Assembly (NCBI GenBank): GCA_012103075.1
Contig: JAAVLQ010000003.1
Span: forward strand, 558,001-622,000
From: Brucella cytisi
GTDB taxonomy: Bacteria; Pseudomonadota; Alphaproteobacteria; Rhizobiales; Rhizobiaceae
Direction: 5' to 3'
DNA length: 64,000 nucleotides
Part shown: piece after piece, positions 42,427-49,654 of the stretch
Layout: each line of letters begins with the position of its first letter
How positions within the stretch are numbered: the first letter of the stretch is position 1
Position numbers and translations under genes: made by a program
The notes under the pieces: generated by a model
Told to the model about the DNA's origin: nothing
What the model saw: the letters and a program-made list of their open reading frames with translations, nothing else
Databases searched by the model: none

Positions 42427-44063
42427 TTAAGGGAGCAATACCGCACGTAGCCGTTCTCTTACTTCTTCGAAGCTTACGCCGAACTTCGCCAGATATTTGA
42501 TCAGTCGATCGGCATCGTTGGCGCTTTTCTTTTCCTGCCGGGATTGCGCAAAGAGAACGCGTCCGGCCGCACTTGCTGATTGGCTCTCTCCACATATTTT
42601 CAACACTGAGGAGAGTTGCGCCCGGTCGAAGAGATCAAGTTTTCCAACACCGTCTTGCCCTAACACCGTTTCGATAATCCTGTGATCGGGAGCTTCGCCT
42701 GCTTTTGAACGCCATAGTCGCAAGAGCACGGTAATTTCCTCTTTAACTTCATCTGCCGTAATACGTCCCTGTGGCGCAAGAGTGGCCATGCGTGTAATCG
42801 AGGCAGAAAGATCACGGAAATTGGCATGCCACTGACCTTGGGGACCTGTCGCGAAGTCAAGATAGAATTGGCGAGCTTCCTTATTGAAGGTTACGTTCTG
42901 CCCTTCCCTTTCCAGATAGCGTTTTAGCTCAAACTCGACATTCGGTTCGATATCCTCCGGGCGCTCACGCAAGGCCGGCAACTGAAACGTCCAGAGATTG
43001 AGACGCGCATAAAGATCTTCCCGGAAACGCCCTGCCTGAACATCATCGCCCAGATCGCGATTGGTACCGGCGATCAGCTGAAACTCTGCCGAAGCCTCCT
43101 TGTCAGAGCCGACCGGCAGAAATCGCTTGTCCTCGATGGCCCTCAGACACATCGCCTGTTCATCGAGGCCAAGATCGCCAATCTCATCAAGAAACAGGAC
43201 ACCTTTGTCTGCCGATTTGAGAAGGCCGGCACGTTCCCCGACCGCTCCAGTGAACGCGCCTTTCACATGACCGAACAAAGTGGACATCGCCTGATCTCCA
43301 CGCAAGGTTGCACAATTGACTTCCACAAACGGGCCGGTGACCTTGTGCTGCGCCTTTTCAGATCGTAGATGCGTCGTGCCAGTTGCGATTTACCTGCACC
43401 CGTCGGGCCCGTCAGCAATACAGGTGCGGTGGAGCGGATAACCACACGCTCGATCCGATCGATCATCCGGTTGAAGGCATTATTGCGTGTAACAATTCCG
43501 GACTTCAGGAAAGTTGCAGCATCCTCACGCTCAGATGCAAAGCGTGTTGCGATCTCATCGTAGCGAGATAGATCCAGATCGATGATGCTATGCGTACCGG
43601 CAACATCAACTTCGGCATCCCGATCAGCGTCTTTGTAGCGTGGTGGGGAAAGCTGCAGAAGCCGTGCCGGGATAATGCGCGCTTCTGTCAGAAGGAACCA
43701 ACAGATCTGCGCCACATGCGTGCCTGTAGTGATATTTACCAGATAATCTTCCGCATCCGGATCGAAAGGATAGTCGCGGGCGAAATCGCGAAGCTTGGTA
43801 TAGACCTCCGAGAAATCCCGGGCGTTGGTATAATTGACGATGTTGCAGTTGACCTCCGTTGCCGGTGATACCGTGCCGATATCGCCGATAATACGCTTTG
43901 CCAGCATTTCGGAATGATTGTCGTGCAACAGTTCGACACGATCGATGAACAGGCCCTGCTGCTGGCAGAGCGCAACATTCGGCCTCCAGCGCGACCATCG
44001 TTTGTCCCACTTGCCCACATCGAGGGTTGTGCCGAGAATGCTGAAGGCGACGCGTTTTTTCAT
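42427..44063 (-). CDS. rtcR: RtcR, sigma-54-dependent activator of RNA repair
   Basis: Enhancer-binding activator of the rtc operon, about 545 residues. The N-terminal CARF-like sensor (KKRVAFSILGTTLDVGKWDK, LVNITTGTHVAQICWFLLTE) binds a ligand, reported for relatives to be a damaged-RNA-derived end. The AAA+ domain has Walker A GPTGAGKS, the sigma-54 contact loop GAFTGA, Walker B LFLDEIGDL and ELIAGTNRDL-like AGTNRDLGDD. It ends in a DNA-binding helix region (YLAKFGVSFEEVRERLRAVL). One slip near 43350. Divergent from rsr, with the sigma-54 promoter in the 210-base spacer. Confidence 0.92.
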
Positions 44064-44220
44064 CTTATCTTTTTATATAAATATTTCTATTAATGGATAG
44101 ATTATCCCACGCTGGTTCTTTCCTCAACAATTGCTCGCCATATTTCTTCGATTTTTATTTCCCCGTTATTTCAAAATGTTATGAGTTTTCTCAGTGGCTT
44201 TTTACTGCCATTTCGCAAAC

Positions 44221-44235
44221 TGGCACGCTTCTTGA
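44221..44235 (+). promoter_or_regulatory. Sigma-54 promoter of the rsr-rtcB operon
   Basis: TGGCACGCTTCTTGA matches the -24/-12 consensus (TGGCAC-N5-TTGC/A) with correct spacing of the GG and TG elements. It sits 38 bases upstream of the rsr start and points to it. With RtcR divergent, this is the expected architecture. An RtcR binding site would lie upstream in the A/T-rich stretch 44064-44200. Confidence 0.8.
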
Positions 44236-44272: not shown

Positions 44273-45828
44273 ATGGTGAACAAGGCAATCTTCAAAACTT
44301 ATCTTGGCAAGCTGCTTCCATCGACAAACACGATGAACGAAGCTGGTGCCCCGGCATATAAGCTGACGCCGAAGGAAGCCCCGGCTCAACTCGCAGTTAC
44401 CGGCACTTTCAACGGTACGTTTTATGCAGATGGCGAAACGCAAGTGAATGCCCTTCATGAACTCAGTTCGTGTCGAGCCAGAATTTCTGGCCAGACTTGC
44501 CGTTTATGCTGCGCAAAAAGGCCTCATGAAGGACATGCCGGTCACGCTGCTGGCACTCCTTTCGACCCTCCAAAGCAATGCATTTGCTGCTGCATTCCCG
44601 CAGGCAGTGAAGAGCGGCAAGATGCTGCGCGGTTTCGTACAGGTCATGCGCTCAGGCGCAATGGGACGCAAGTCGCTTGGAACGCGGCCAAAGAAGATGG
44701 TGCAGTCCCGGTTGGAGACGGCCAGCACGCGCCAGCTTCTCAACGCCATGGTCGGCAGTGAACCGTCTCTGGCAGACGTCGTCAAAATAGTCCATCCGAA
44801 ACCGGCAAACGAAGAACGCAAAGCGTTTTATGCCCGGATGATCGGCAAGCCATACGACTACGCAGCGCTCCCAGTCGAAGTGAAGGCTCTGGAAGAGTTT
44901 CGGCGCGATCTGACGAAACCTGTCCCGGACGTTCCGTTTCAGCTGCTGACTTCGCTGCCGCTGACACGCGAGCATTGGGCCGGGATCGCACGAAACGGAA
45001 GCTGGCAGATGGTTCGCCAGAATCTGAATACCTTTGCACGCAAGGGTGTATTCGACGTCGAAGGGATGACAAAGGAGGTTGCCCACCGTCTTTCTGATCC
45101 GGAAGCTGTGCGCAAAGCCAGAGTTTTTCCGTATCAGCTGATGACAACGTGGAAAGCGGCGTCGGAGGCAGTACCGGAGGAGGTTCGCGAGGCGCTTCAA
45201 CAGGCAATGAACGCAGCTCTGGCCAATGTGCCGGCGCTGGACGGTCGGGTAATTCTTTGCCCGGACGTTTCCGGTTCGATGGGCTCAAGCGTCACCGGTC
45301 ATCGCAAAGGGTGCGACCTCGATCGTCCGTTGCATCGACGTGGCCGGTCTGATGACAGCTGCGTTTCTGCAAAGAAACCCGAATGCCCGGGTGATGCCGT
45401 TTGAGTATGACGTTGTCGACGTCCGCCTGAACCGACGTGACTCGGTCATGACCAATGCCGCGAAGCTGGCCAGCATCGGCGGTGGCGGCACCAACTGCTC
45501 TGCACCTCTGGCAAGACTTGCCGACGAGCGGGCAAAGGTGGACCTCGTGGTGTTCATCTCGGATAACCAGTCCCGGGTAGAACAGTCCTACTATGGCAGC
45601 GCCTCAACGAAGATGAAGGAATGGGCCCGGATAAAAGGCTCAATCCCGCTGCAAAGCTGGTGTGTCTCGACATCCAGCCCTATCAGACGACGCAGGCGCA
45701 AAGTCGAAACGACGTGCTTAATATAGGCGGCTTCTCTGATGCCGTCTTCGAAGTGATTGCAGCTTTTGCCGATGGCGAAAGTGGTCCTGAGACGGCTGCA
45801 AAAGATCGAAGCCGTAGAGCTTCAATGA
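44273..45828 (+). CDS. rsr: Ro60/TROVE-domain RNA-binding protein (Rsr)
   Basis: Bacterial orthologue of Ro60, a ring-shaped protein that binds Y RNAs and misfolded RNA ends and works with exonucleases. The TROVE part is [48 protein letters not shown] and, after a slip near 44465, [20 protein letters not shown], then [20 protein letters not shown]. The VWA domain holds the [14 protein letters not shown] and continues [15 protein letters not shown]. Slips near 45300, 45650 and 45795. With the last repaired it ends [10 protein letters not shown] at 45828. About 515 residues. First gene under the sigma-54 promoter, followed directly by tRNA-like RNA modules. Confidence 0.88.
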
Positions 45829-45854
45829 AAGAATGCTCGCGCCGGGTTTCCCGG

Positions 45855-45935
45855 TGCGGGCAACTGCAACGAATGCCGGTCGAAACTACAGATCGTTACT
45901 CTCCGGTCGCAGGTTCGAATCCCGCCGGGTTCTCC
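45855..45935 (+). ncRNA. tRNA-like / Y-RNA-like module 1
   Basis: Starts about 25 bases after rsr. Contains the shared core CGAATGCCGGTCGAAACTACA (45870-45890; 21 bases, given as positions) and, 19 bases later, a T-arm GCAGG-TTCGAAT-CCCGC. An acceptor-like CCGGGTTCTCC follows. There is no full cloverleaf with an anticodon arm, so it is tRNA-like rather than a tRNA. Y RNAs next to rsr genes are known to mimic tRNAs, which makes a Ro-bound Y RNA the best reading. Confidence 0.6.
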
Positions 45936-45942
45936 TTCCTTA

Positions 45943-46092
45943 TGGACCCGTAGATCAGCGGTAGAGCAGGCGTTTCACCAATTCTTGTCGTTGCAGACAA
46001 CGGAAATATCTGGCGAATGCCTGAGGAACTACATTGGTAAAGCCGCAAGGCGAGCAGATTCAAATTCTGCACTCTCGCAAGAGAGAATTTTT
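45943..46092 (+). ncRNA. tRNA-like / Y-RNA-like module 2
   Basis: The most complete of the three. A tRNA-like 5' end GGACCCGTAGATCAGCGG with D-loop-like GGTAGAGCAG (45961-45969) is followed by an insert. The core CGAATGCCTGAGGAACTACA lies at 46014-46033, and a perfect 5-bp T-arm GCAGA-TTCAAAT-TCTGC at 46054-46070. A GNRA-capped hairpin CTCTC-GCAA-GAGAG (46072-46085) then leads into AATTTTTC, which resembles a short terminator. The 3' acceptor complement to GGACCCG is absent, so aminoacylation is unlikely. Confidence 0.6.
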
Positions 46093-46107
46093 CAGAAAGT
46101 TGTCGCC

Positions 46108-46200
46108 AGATCGAAGACGGGCAGTTGCGAATGCCGGGTGGAACTACAGCGCTCCAAACTCTTGGATGGTCTGGCAGGTTCGACTCCTCCTTTGCGATAC
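46108..46200 (+). ncRNA. tRNA-like / Y-RNA-like module 3
   Basis: Third copy. GGGCAGTTG precedes the core at 46128-46148 (CGAATGCCGGGTGG then AACTACA), and 26 bases later comes a T-loop-like GGCAGGTTCGACTCC (46173-46187). Core-to-core spacing is 144 bases from copy 1 to 2 and 114 from copy 2 to 3. Flanking sequence differs between copies, so these are diverged paralogues and not a recent duplication. Confidence 0.55.
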
Positions 46201-46267
46201 GCTCTCTGGCACGAGCGGGGCCATCCGGGTTTCGCCCATCCTTGTCGCCGCTGCCCGTATTCACAAA

Positions 46268-46322
46268 TGCACTTTCGAAAAGTGCAAAACTGTTCTCCTC
46301 GCCTCGGCGACAGAACAATTTT
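46268..46322 (+). terminator. Two hairpins ahead of rtcB
   Basis: A perfect 8-bp stem TGCACTTT/AAAGTGCA (46268-46286, 3-base loop) is followed by an extended stem at 46291-46317 (TGTTCT/AGAACA around CGCC/GGCG) ending in ATTTT. They may terminate or process the tRNA-like RNAs away from the rtcB mRNA, leaving part read-through. Confidence 0.5.
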
Positions 46323-46365
46323 GAAACGATGACAATTGAGAAGGACTGCAAAAGCAGGAAAGACA

Positions 46366-47795
<1,430 letters not shown>

Positions 47796-47838: not shown

Positions 47839-48450
47839 TCAGAAACGGTAGCTCTTCACCTCATTTCCGCGCTCGATGTTGCGGTTTTCCTGATGACGGG
47901 CAACCTTTGCATCTTCTATCTGGTCATCCTGCATGTGTTTCAGAACCATCCCCAGACGTTCCAGCGCCATTGCCTTGTTTCGATGCTGGGATCGCTCATT
48001 GCGAGCAATTAACTGGATGCCCGTCGGAATATGGACAATGCGTACAGCGCTGTCAGTTGTGTTCTGGTGCTGACCGCCCGGTCCACCAGCACGCAACGTT
48101 TCAAAGCGAACGTCACCGGGCCGAATGGCGGTCTGTTCAACCGCTGGCCGCGCTATCCGGCTCACCGAAATAAACCAGTTCTGCCGTTTATGCTGCGGTC
48201 GAACAGAACTCTTGAACACAAACCTTATTGTTCCGCAGAATTCCTGCGCGATCTGTTCAGCTGTTTCTCCCTCCAGAGTTATCAGAGCAGATTTAGGGCC
48301 ATATTTATCGGCTGCGATTTCCGATGTAACTTCGGACAGACAACCGCGATTTTCTGCTTCCCCGGAAAGAATATCGATTAAACGCCCGACCGCAATACGG
48401 CATTCCGCGGGCCCGCTCCCCGATGATATAAGTAGATCAACGCTTTTCAT
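47839..48450 (-). CDS. prfH: Peptide chain release factor homologue PrfH
   Basis: A codon-independent release factor relative of 203 residues, intact. It keeps the peptidyl-hydrolase G-G-Q motif in RAGGPGGQHQNTTDSAVR and the class I domain 3 signature RNERSQHRNKAMALERL, but lacks the stop-codon recognition domain. Known members act with RtcB2: PrfH releases the peptide from ribosomes cut in the 16S decoding centre, allowing religation. The start at 48450 overlaps the rtcB2 end by 14 bases, so translation is coupled. Confidence 0.9.
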   Translation of the reverse strand: MKSVDLLISSGSGPAECRIAVGRLIDILSGEAENRGCLSEVTSEIAADKYGPKSALITLEGETAEQIAQEFCGTIRFVFKSSVRPQHKRQNWFISVSRIARPAVEQTAIRPGDVRFETLRAGGPGGQHQNTTDSAVRIVHIPTGIQLIARNERSQHRNKAMALERLGMVLKHMQDDQIEDAKVARHQENRNIERGNEVKSYRF

Positions 48451-49654
48451 TGCGCGTCTCCCTCTTGTTCCGCCTGTCAGATGTTTCGCGAGAATTTCCC
48501 GGTCGATCGACGGCTTTCTTGTAAGTAACGAGCGGACGCATAGCGGCAACACGTTCTACCAGCTGATGCGCCTCCAGATCCGCTACAACCCGGCTGCAGT
48601 CCTTGTAGGCGGAGGCTGCTTCTTCAATCAGGAGGGAGCGGTCATCGCAGATTGCCCTTCCACCCCAATCGTTACGCGCTAACTGCTCACGGTGCGAACG
48701 TGACGCACCCACACGACCGCGCATGCTCGCCCGATCATATTTTCGCCCTGCACCGTGAGAAATGGCGCCCAGAGACTGTTGCACCTCTTCCCGAGCACGC
48801 ACCACGTAACTGAGGCTTGCTCGCGATCCAGCAATTGGAACGAGATCGCCGCCCCCGGTCGCCGCAGCGCCCTTGTGATGAACGATTCCCTCGGGCAGAA
48901 AGCGCACCAGATTATGCGGCACGTCTGCAACGAGTGTGAGATCCGCCCGTAACGCTCGTGCGGCGCGTTCTGCGATCAAGCGCCGGTTCAACGCTGCCCA
49001 CGTGACACATCGATCATGCATCGCCATCCATTGGGCAGAAACGGGATCGTCCCTCTGGAACCCGGTATTTGGATTTTCGTTGCAGGCGAGGAATTCCGCA
49101 AGTACTGCAGCTCCAACGCCGCGAGAACCCGAATGAACCAGAAGATAAAGATATTGATCATCGATCAGATGTCCGGAATTTGACTTGAAAACCCGATCGA
49201 CTGCCTGCAATTCGCAAAAGTGGTTACCACCGCCAATGGTTCCCAAAGCCTCTGGGGAAAGATCATGCGGCAGGCCGTGAGCAGACAGAGCTTCCACTGG
49301 ATCGCCAATCTGTTGTTGTTCCAGTTCTCTCAGTCGCAGTTCAGCTTTATCGATACGCAACTTACGCAATGGCAAATCGAGTGCGAAAAGTGACATACCG
49401 CAACCGATATCATTGCCGATCAGCAGCGGATGCAAACGATCAGATAGAAGGGCGACGCCTGTAGCGCCATATTTTCCCGGATGCAAATCGGGAAAGGCAG
49501 CAAGCGTCTGTACTCCATCAAGGCGTGACATTTCTTCAAGCTGCCGAAGCGCTTCGCCTTCAATCCAGCTTTGCCCGGAATAAAAACGACGAAAAGTTGC
49601 CGGAGAATCTCCACCGGCGTCGAAAGAGCCGAAGCCCTCAGTTTGATTGCCCAT
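48437..49654 (-). CDS. rtcB2: RtcB2-type RNA ligase (ribosome repair)
   Basis: RNA ligase of 405 residues of the type coded next to prfH, intact. Active-site blocks are canonical: NDIGCGM (Asp, Cys), TIGGGNHFCEL (His), LLVHSGSRGVG (His), IVHHKGAAATGGGD and ISHGAGRKYDR (guanylylated His). Its basic C-terminal tail (RRNKRETRNEKR) would help bind rRNA. It is thought to rejoin 16S rRNA cut by E3-type ribotoxins. Read in the opposite direction to rsr-rtcB, with which it converges. The start codon at 49654 has only a weak ribosome site. Confidence 0.88.
   Translation of the reverse strand: MGNQTEGFGSFDAGGDSPATFRRFYSGQSWIEGEALRQLEEMSRLDGVQTLAAFPDLHPGKYGATGVALLSDRLHPLLIGNDIGCGMSLFALDLPLRKLRIDKAELRLRELEQQQIGDPVEALSAHGLPHDLSPEALGTIGGGNHFCELQAVDRVFKSNSGHLIDDQYLYLLVHSGSRGVGAAVLAEFLACNENPNTGFQRDDPVSAQWMAMHDRCVTWAALNRRLIAERAARALRADLTLVADVPHNLVRFLPEGIVHHKGAAATGGGDLVPIAGSRASLSYVVRAREEVQQSLGAISHGAGRKYDRASMRGRVGASRSHREQLARNDWGGRAICDDRSLLIEEAASAYKDCSRVVADLEAHQLVERVAAMRPLVTYKKAVDRPGNSRETSDRRNKRETRNEKR

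Follow-up and report, generated by a model that had tools for sequence, protein, structure and literature searches.

Three tandem Y RNA-like modules with differing tRNA-derived heads in the rsr-rtcB RNA-repair operon of Brucella cytisi

What do the three similar segments between rsr and rtcB in Brucella cytisi encode, and how are they related to the small RNAs found beside bacterial Ro60 proteins? Y RNAs, their mimicry of tRNA and the presence of two of them in one operon are already known, and Chen et al. are said to have identified, in 2014, Y RNAs encoded close to Rsr in over 250 species, each species having at least one with a tRNA-like domain. The role of bacterial Y RNAs beside RtcB is stated as an open question in PMC7790460. 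Here we analysed a 64,000-nucleotide stretch of the B. cytisi genome, referred to as the window, whose positions are used throughout.

The locus opens on the left with the minus-strand gene rtcR, followed by a sigma54-like promoter, rsr, the spacer with the modules, and rtcB. The rtcR gene (42427..44063, minus strand) is divergent from rsr and frameshifted into two frames, one matching Pfam RtcR (E 5.6e-74) and the other Sigma54_activat (E 3.8e-37). A pattern scan places the -24/-12-like promoter CTGGCACGCTTCTTGA at 44220..44235 on the plus strand, 37 nt before the rsr start. Under a strict pattern scan, a sigma54-like site lies at most 350 nt upstream of rsr in 48 of 78 loci and is absent in 30; the same pattern on the reverse strand upstream of rsr was found in 0 of the 78. 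The rsr gene (bacterial Ro60, TROVE; 44273..45828, plus strand, 3' end approximate) lies in four frame pieces that are 68-73% identical to R. etli Rsr by tblastn, one of them matching Pfam TROVE (E 3.3e-7), and R. etli Rsr matches the Rsr of PDB 2nvo (E 3.9e-25). It stands directly upstream of the modules, the position beside Ro60/Rsr by which bacterial Y RNAs are recognised. The RNA ligase gene rtcB (46366..47795, plus strand) is present in three frame pieces, of which the main one matches Pfam RtcB (E 1.9e-23); the pieces were also recovered by tblastn. Just before it, at 46339-46365, the string AGAAGGACTGC..GCAG, kept in five aligned spacers, reads as a ribosome site overlapping a small conserved hairpin. 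Additionally, on the minus strand at 47839-49654, a release-factor-like gene (RF-1 domain, E 1.9e-25) adjoins a second RtcB (E 1.4e-52). This gene pair, which we take to resemble PrfH-RtcB2, looks like a second RNA-repair locus directly beside the first.

A preliminary description had reported three segments in the spacer; they are present there, but they are longer than it gave, and the third reaches 46253. The shared core that it noted, CGAATGCC, recurs beyond chance at 45870, 46014 and 46128, each time followed by ACTACA, and the T-arm it assigned to each segment is also found, with T-loops TTCGAAT at 45914, TTCAAAT at 46059 and TTCGACT at 46179. All three modules follow a common plan, in which a 5' stem strand ending in CGA is followed by AUGCC and ACUACA, and the 3' end carries UUGUCG and the matching stem strand. 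The idea that the segments are Ro60-linked Y RNAs in tandem and share an element that might bind Ro agrees with the pairing of this core: with the 3' UUGUCG, it forms the closing stem that is also present in the Rfam YrlA and YrlB models. This Ro-type stem, CGAAUG...UUGUCG, occurs in all three modules and is paired at 9 of 9 positions in modules 1 and 2, with one mismatch in module 3.

Within this common frame, the three heads differ. Module 1 (type A, 45864..45996, plus strand like all of its parts) has its Ro stem at 45864-45872/45988-45996, a T-arm at 45909-45925, acceptor strands at 45926-45932 and 45944-45950, a UA linker at 45951-45952 and a D-arm at 45953-45967. As predicted from these arms, module 1 is a circularly permuted tRNA (T-arm, acceptor, D-arm) in which the Ro stem stands in for the anticodon arm, and it is the only one of the three in this permuted YrlA order. 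The D-arm sequence AGCGGTAGAGCAG (45957-45969), previously assigned to module 2, sits in module 1, between the T-arm and the closing 3' strand. The statement that no segment makes a full cloverleaf is correct for the linear order but not for the permuted one, in which module 1 has all tRNA arms except the anticodon arm. Module 2 (type G, 46008..46111, plus strand) is composed, in order, of the Ro stem, GGUAA, a mini hairpin GCC-GCAA-GGC, a T-arm at 46054-46070 and a mini hairpin CTCTC-GCAA-GAGAG; it has no D-stem or D-arm, and looks like a reduced D-loop-opened form. In module 3 (type B, 46122..46253, plus strand), the Ro stem is extended outward by GGG/CCC, the T-loop occupies 46179-46185 and a D-like hairpin GCTC-TCTGGCAC-GAGC lies at 46201-46216. 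This module lacks an acceptor stem and, to judge from the elements present, is a D/T elbow only.

Covariance models recovered the modules to different degrees. Rfam YrlA (RF02553) matches module 1 (50.5 bits, E 4.9e-10) and module 2 (36 bits, E 7.9e-6) over its full length; none of the window modules reaches its gathering score of 69 bits, and module 3 is unmatched by Rfam. The same-slot module of the congener L066 scores 64.7 bits. A search with Y RNA models, as had been suggested, therefore yielded YrlA matches to modules 1 and 2 below gathering, but no YrlB (RF02565) match at 45300-46700 up to E 5. Furthermore, R1, a covariance model from 20 modules of other Rhizobiaceae and none from the window, scores module 1 at 41.8 bits (E 2.5e-10), module 2 at 27.2 (E 8.6e-6) and module 3 at 15.8 (E 0.03), with nothing else up to E 0.05 on either strand of the 64 kb. 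Modules 1 and 2 are additionally placed by the type A and type G alignments, respectively, and module 3, weakly matched by R1, by clustering and by the type B alignment with its covariation. ARAGORN finds no tRNA and no tmRNA in the window.

For a wider survey, loci were collected with the R. etli Rsr protein, the TROVE Pfam model being too insensitive as a genome-wide probe (it missed the window Rsr at E 1e-20). Downstream of rsr, a structural descriptor detected 331 modules in the 84,396 nt covered at 91 loci. The controls gave 11 in 701,670 nt upstream of rsr with both strands scanned, none on the opposite strand of the spacers, and between 0 and 3 in each of 10 mononucleotide shuffles. The descriptor requires a paired closing stem; it was relaxed to admit the stem mismatch of module 3, and the controls were rerun on the relaxed form. 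The spacer stretch was limited to at most 1500 nt where rtcB was not found, two loci were excluded (L048, with a 16 nt spacer, and L094, with no rsr 3' end), and module types were obtained by clustering on inner domains. Judged from sequence, the three tandem modules are almost certainly bacterial Y RNA genes. Together, they very probably constitute a three-Y-RNA (Yrl) array in an rsr-rtcB RNA-repair operon of the RtcR/sigma54 type, with a common handle and differing tRNA-derived heads.

The preliminary description had made its case depend on conservation in orthologous spacers, and all three modules are indeed kept in three congeners and in Brucella endophytica (L041). Among 35 genomes of the genus, the array is present in 4 (the window's own and three others, at 87-90% identity), and it is thus accessory in the genus. 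Another 12 genus genomes gave short weak matches only, and all five of those inspected fall on tRNA-Arg genes. The window's own copy of the operon carries frameshifts, which split rsr into four pieces and rtcB into three and also split rtcR; the genome has a listed completeness of 85.8% and a contamination of 6.4%. By contrast, rsr and rtcB are single-frame in all three congeners over the compared part (rsr from residue 12), so module differences private to the window may be sequencing errors. Window module 1 has mismatches in its D- and T-stems, and the D-stem mismatch is missing from all three congeners. We consider this private mismatch and the frameshifts to be probable sequence errors.

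Related loci carry ordered arrays of 3 to 7 modules, perhaps 8. A non-redundant set of 88 spacers, from which three spacers repeating others over the first 390 nt had been removed, holds 320 modules, with at least three in 70 spacers. This was the case for 51 of 52 spacers from the named records, the window and two congeners, many of which are close relatives, and for 19 of the remaining 36, where manual inspection reveals further modules and the counts are thus lower bounds. Arrays of the named Rhizobiaceae usually start with A, continue with one to three variable modules and end with whichever of B, C and D are present, in that order; some arrays lack certain slots or have C doubled, and the window reads A-G-B. 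The longest array (L046) has seven modules by the detector and a weak eighth by R1 (E 0.035); that of Rhizobium etli CIAT 652 (L006) has five. Linkers between modules are mostly short (median 14 nt over 243 linkers, all loci). Fourteen loci outside the model-building set have R1 matches of at least 73 bits (L105, L095 twice, L104, L088, L099, L096, L103, L087, L102, L060, L013, L100, L098 and L097), which assigns these modules to type C. R1 matches totalled 145 across 42 sources and 187 across 47; those noticed off the arrays were at L087 1468-1490, L145 6133-6262 and L025 8821-8944.

When genomes were screened for Rsr itself (E at most 1e-20), 27 of 297 in the order, 7 of 385 in the class and 10 of 398 in the phylum were positive, with the window genome counted in each, as were 5 of 321 in the class of genome G584, one of them by a fragment alone. 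Outside the window's class, several modules in a row were seen by eye in L089-L093. In 12 loci, the detector found 48 modules, compared with 6 YrlA matches at the Rfam cut-off and 26 at E 0.01. By sequence comparison, the window array belongs to a widespread, mostly unlabelled kind of RNA array, and annotation misses most array members. Phage records with an Rsr relative at E 1e-5 number 375; in phage Mx1, the one phage examined, no clear array lies beside Rsr; two weak matches, one to the descriptor and one to R1 (E 0.039), are both away from it.

Several loci showed peculiarities of their own. In Rhizobium sp. Pop5 (L012), the array stops inside module 1, beside a gene (1650-2837) annotated with DNA transposition. 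In L092, about 210-280 nt after rsr, a short tandem repeat of the 3' Ro core (CTTGTCTTGT several times) is possibly a slippage expansion of a putative Rsr-binding strand. In L009, a hypothetical protein annotated at 2087-2410 on the minus strand is antisense to the array end and the rtcB start, and is probably spurious.

How closely do the heads resemble tRNA? In type A (68 modules aligned), the T-arm, the acceptor stem with its UA linker (U8A9) and the D-stem follow in that order, and the Ro stem occupies the place of the anticodon arm. The landmarks U8, A9, A14 and A58 are each present in 68/68, and the acceptor loop often starts with N-CCA (C74 in 49/68, C75 in 53/68, A76 in 46/68). Type C, with 45 distinct sequences, takes slot 4 of longer arrays and is absent from the window. 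Folding without imposed structure gives a D-stem, an anticodon-like hairpin, a five-base variable loop, a T-arm and an acceptor hairpin within the Y stems, and a separate alignment of 20 type C sequences gives the same fold; type C is accordingly modelled as a complete cloverleaf with four arms and its opening in the D-loop. Its landmarks A14, G19, A21, U54 and U55 occur in 45/45 each and A58 in 44/45. Types A and C were selected by patterns with D-arm strings, and their D-stem counts are partly selected. When no pattern was applied, the type C fold was again obtained for the 35 cluster C modules, with GAGC/GCUC in 34, and the type A fold for the 45 distinct first modules of the named set, 43 of which have all four D pairs. 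Type B, which clustering recovered in 48 loci, combines a T-arm with the hairpin GCUC-UCUGGCAC-GAGC and an anticodon-like helix and lacks an acceptor stem. In types F and G (20 modules), GGUAA is followed by a small hairpin, the T-arm and a further hairpin; the type G alignment comprises 7 sequences, window module 2 included.

To express this likeness in linear form, we opened each module at the acceptor loop, removed the Y stem, linked the two halves, appended NCCA and submitted the result to ARAGORN. After this re-linearisation, tRNA calls were obtained for 56 of the 68 type A modules and for 24 of the 45 of type C, compared with 0/68 and 0/45 unrotated and 0/1360 and 0/900 shuffled; 12 type A modules, window module 1 among them, and 21 type C modules were missed. 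We rejected both a single tRNA species as the template and a decoding role for the loops, because the anticodons that ARAGORN calls on rotated modules are scattered. Module 5 of L089 (852-995, minus strand) and module 4 of L114 (3594-3738) are D-loop-opened with a long variable arm; a tRNA-Leu likeness seen by eye was not borne out by ARAGORN, which gave Arg for one and an undetermined type for the other. A non-tRNA head with the string CCGACTCACCGTTATCGGGAGCCCG is common to L013 module 3 and L098 module 5, from two distant genomes.

Such resemblance raises the question of whether the spacer is instead a tRNA graveyard or integration site, where mobile elements left tRNA remnants or where adjacent modules together form one tRNA in normal order. 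There is indeed similarity of T-arm and D-arm sequences to genomic tRNA-Asn, -Lys and -Arg: when module 1 of L067 is rotated, its best genomic match besides itself is tRNA-Asn (75% over 69 nt), followed by Lys and Arg, and the two best genomic matches of a rotated type C module (Lys, Thr) cover its 5' part only. Moreover, in L090, the Rfam tRNA model once rises above cut-off across two adjoining modules. Nevertheless, the absence of an ARAGORN tRNA in the window, the covariation of helices within the heads, the largely conserved type order, and the lack of any other YrlA match below E 0.08 in the whole window genome all argue against remnants. This reading is disfavoured, and we regard it as very unlikely indeed.

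Covariation was assessed in sets thinned to below 90% identity (34 sequences for A, 12 for B, 27 for C, 13 for FG and 8 each for D and E). Cells changed on both sides of a pair exceeded the maximum of 500 shuffles in A (139 against 52), B (28 against 16), C (108 against 46), FG (52 against 29) and D (12 against 10); type E, with 4 cells against a maximum of 4, was not above the shuffles. In FG, double-change pairs (17) and extra pair types (37) were inside the shuffle range (18 and 40), and in B and D extra pair types merely equalled the shuffle maximum. Since the detector demands a paired closing stem, covariation there is partly built in; the closing stem accounts for 59 cells of type A, 5 of type B and 10 of type C, and the remainder comes from inner helices, chiefly the acceptor in A (57) and the anticodon-like helix (44) and acceptor (40) in C. 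The D-stems (0 cells in A, 1 in C and 0 in the D hairpin of B) are near-invariant and thus provide almost no covariation evidence. Within arrays, closing stems cross-pair in 58 of 1072 combinations, compared with a mean of 133 and a minimum of 75 in 500 randomly drawn arrays, which may be explained by the presence of one module per type in an array.

These data also bear on whether module 1 is the sole working Y RNA, with modules 2 and 3 being degenerate duplicates drifting toward loss. Modules 2 and 3 do lack several tRNA arms and score low, module 3 has its stem mismatch, and array length differs among loci. On the other hand, most types keep their own head and their place in the order across many loci, type B in 48, and type B shows double changes in 12 of 39 pairs among 12 thinned sequences. 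Additionally, between the window and the congener L068, the closing stem of each of the three modules is changed on both sides of a pair; in L066 and L067, the stem differences from the window are one-sided and lie in modules 2 or 3. Loss of function in modules 2 and 3 therefore appears quite improbable. The modules, their handle, covariation, order and operon layout are seen in the sequence itself.

A further alternative is that the array serves chiefly as a leader-like regulatory or spacer element of the rtcB mRNA, acting on translation or stability and not giving rise to separate RNAs. Its location between rsr and rtcB, the mostly short linkers and the small conserved hairpin directly 5' of rtcB would suit such a role. 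However, the stems are individually closed, the heads are tRNA-like and not switch-like, and the modules are homologous to YrlA and YrlB, which PMC7790460 describes as known RNAs in Salmonella. We give the leader explanation little weight and continue with separate Y RNAs.

How might an array of Y RNAs work in this operon? According to PMC9879122, RtcR responds to an oligoribonucleotide with a 2',3'-cyclic phosphate end and, once activated, directs sigma54 transcription of the operon. We infer transcription, excision, Rsr binding, partner proteins and a division of labour among the modules as follows. Broken RNA would activate RtcR, and the resulting transcript would be cut into single Y RNAs. 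Each of these would load on Rsr (bacterial Ro60) via the common double-stem handle and present a different tRNA face. The Y RNAs could thereby tether different tRNA-handling enzymes, such as PNPase, RtcB and modification or processing enzymes, to Rsr, or alternatively act as decoys for tRNA-damaging enzymes. A Y RNA tethers Rsr to PNPase in Deinococcus radiodurans (PMC7790460, PMC8394870), YrlA is modified by DusA and TruB (PMC8394870), and the YrlA domain is proposed as a competitor of an anticodon nuclease (PMC7790460). Such a panel of Y RNA adaptors or decoys is a plausible reading, to which we assign slightly less than even weight. If true, one induced transcript would provide Rsr with adaptors or decoys bearing complementary tRNA faces for tRNA enzymes or tRNA-cutting toxins, and Rsr would be a platform with exchangeable tRNA-shaped adaptors.

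More generally, we tentatively propose, with doubt outweighing confidence, that proteobacterial RNA-repair operons carry ordered Y RNA panels in which one Ro handle is grafted at different points of the tRNA, a D-loop-opened class included. A graft at the anticodon arm may expose the elbow and the acceptor end, and one at the D-loop may expose an anticodon-like arm, the T-arm and the acceptor end while the elbow bears the handle; the panel may also take in reduced elbow-only and non-tRNA heads. The D-loop-opened cloverleaf may then be a Y RNA class of its own, to which the unnamed third member of Salmonella-type operons may also belong. As a second way to build a handle into a tRNA, this form would be useful for RNA structure and design.

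Among the closest known systems is the Salmonella operon rsr-yrlBA-rtcBA (YrlA RF02553, YrlB RF02565), which shares with the window the divergent rtcR, sigma54 control, the order rsr, Y RNAs, rtcB, the CGAAUGC/UUGUCG closing stem and, in YrlA, a T-arm before the D-arm. Unlike the window, which has three Y RNAs of other types and no YrlB match, the Salmonella operon names two: yrlB and yrlA alone are named in the excerpts of PMC7790460 and PMC9879122. Two short Salmonella-type contigs deposited as unverified phage (L143, L144) contain an rsr 3' end, three modules and an rtcB start. Their first module matches Rfam YrlB (105.5 bits) and their second YrlA (70.9 bits), both above cut-off, the second scoring 22.8 on R1. 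The unnamed third module, between YrlA and rtcB (L143:922-1036, L144:1075-1189), scores 31.7 bits with YrlA and 39.9 with R1. A Salmonella-type query matches 205 of 5,426 E. coli genomes; the 8 matches listed cover the rtcB end of the query only, and none covers 80% of it. The related arrays differ further from the Salmonella operon in carrying 3 to 7 or 8 ordered types, including D-loop-opened cloverleaves. No description of long Y RNA arrays or D-loop-opened forms was found in the literature searched, which excludes the main Y RNA papers.

The Y RNA of D. radiodurans in RYPER (Rsr-Y RNA-PNPase) is comparable through its Rsr homologue (PDB 2nvo). There, according to PMC4726728, the lower stem is the Rsr handle and the Y RNA is a tether, whereas the window combines several permuted tRNA mimics as heads in one operon with rtcB. 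tmRNA likewise has a tRNA-like domain and gives weak, partial T-arm matches; its model reaches 8.2 bits in the window against a gathering score of 47, no match at gathering occurs in the sequences scanned, and ARAGORN calls no tmRNA in the window. In the circularly permuted tRNA genes of algae and archaea, the 3' half of the tRNA precedes the 5' half. The modules resemble them in their joined acceptor ends, and the joining loop of type A often holds CCA. In contrast to those genes, the modules show no sign of processing to a working tRNA; the ends created by the permutation pair as a conserved Ro stem, and the tRNA is opened at one of two points, the anticodon arm or the D-loop.
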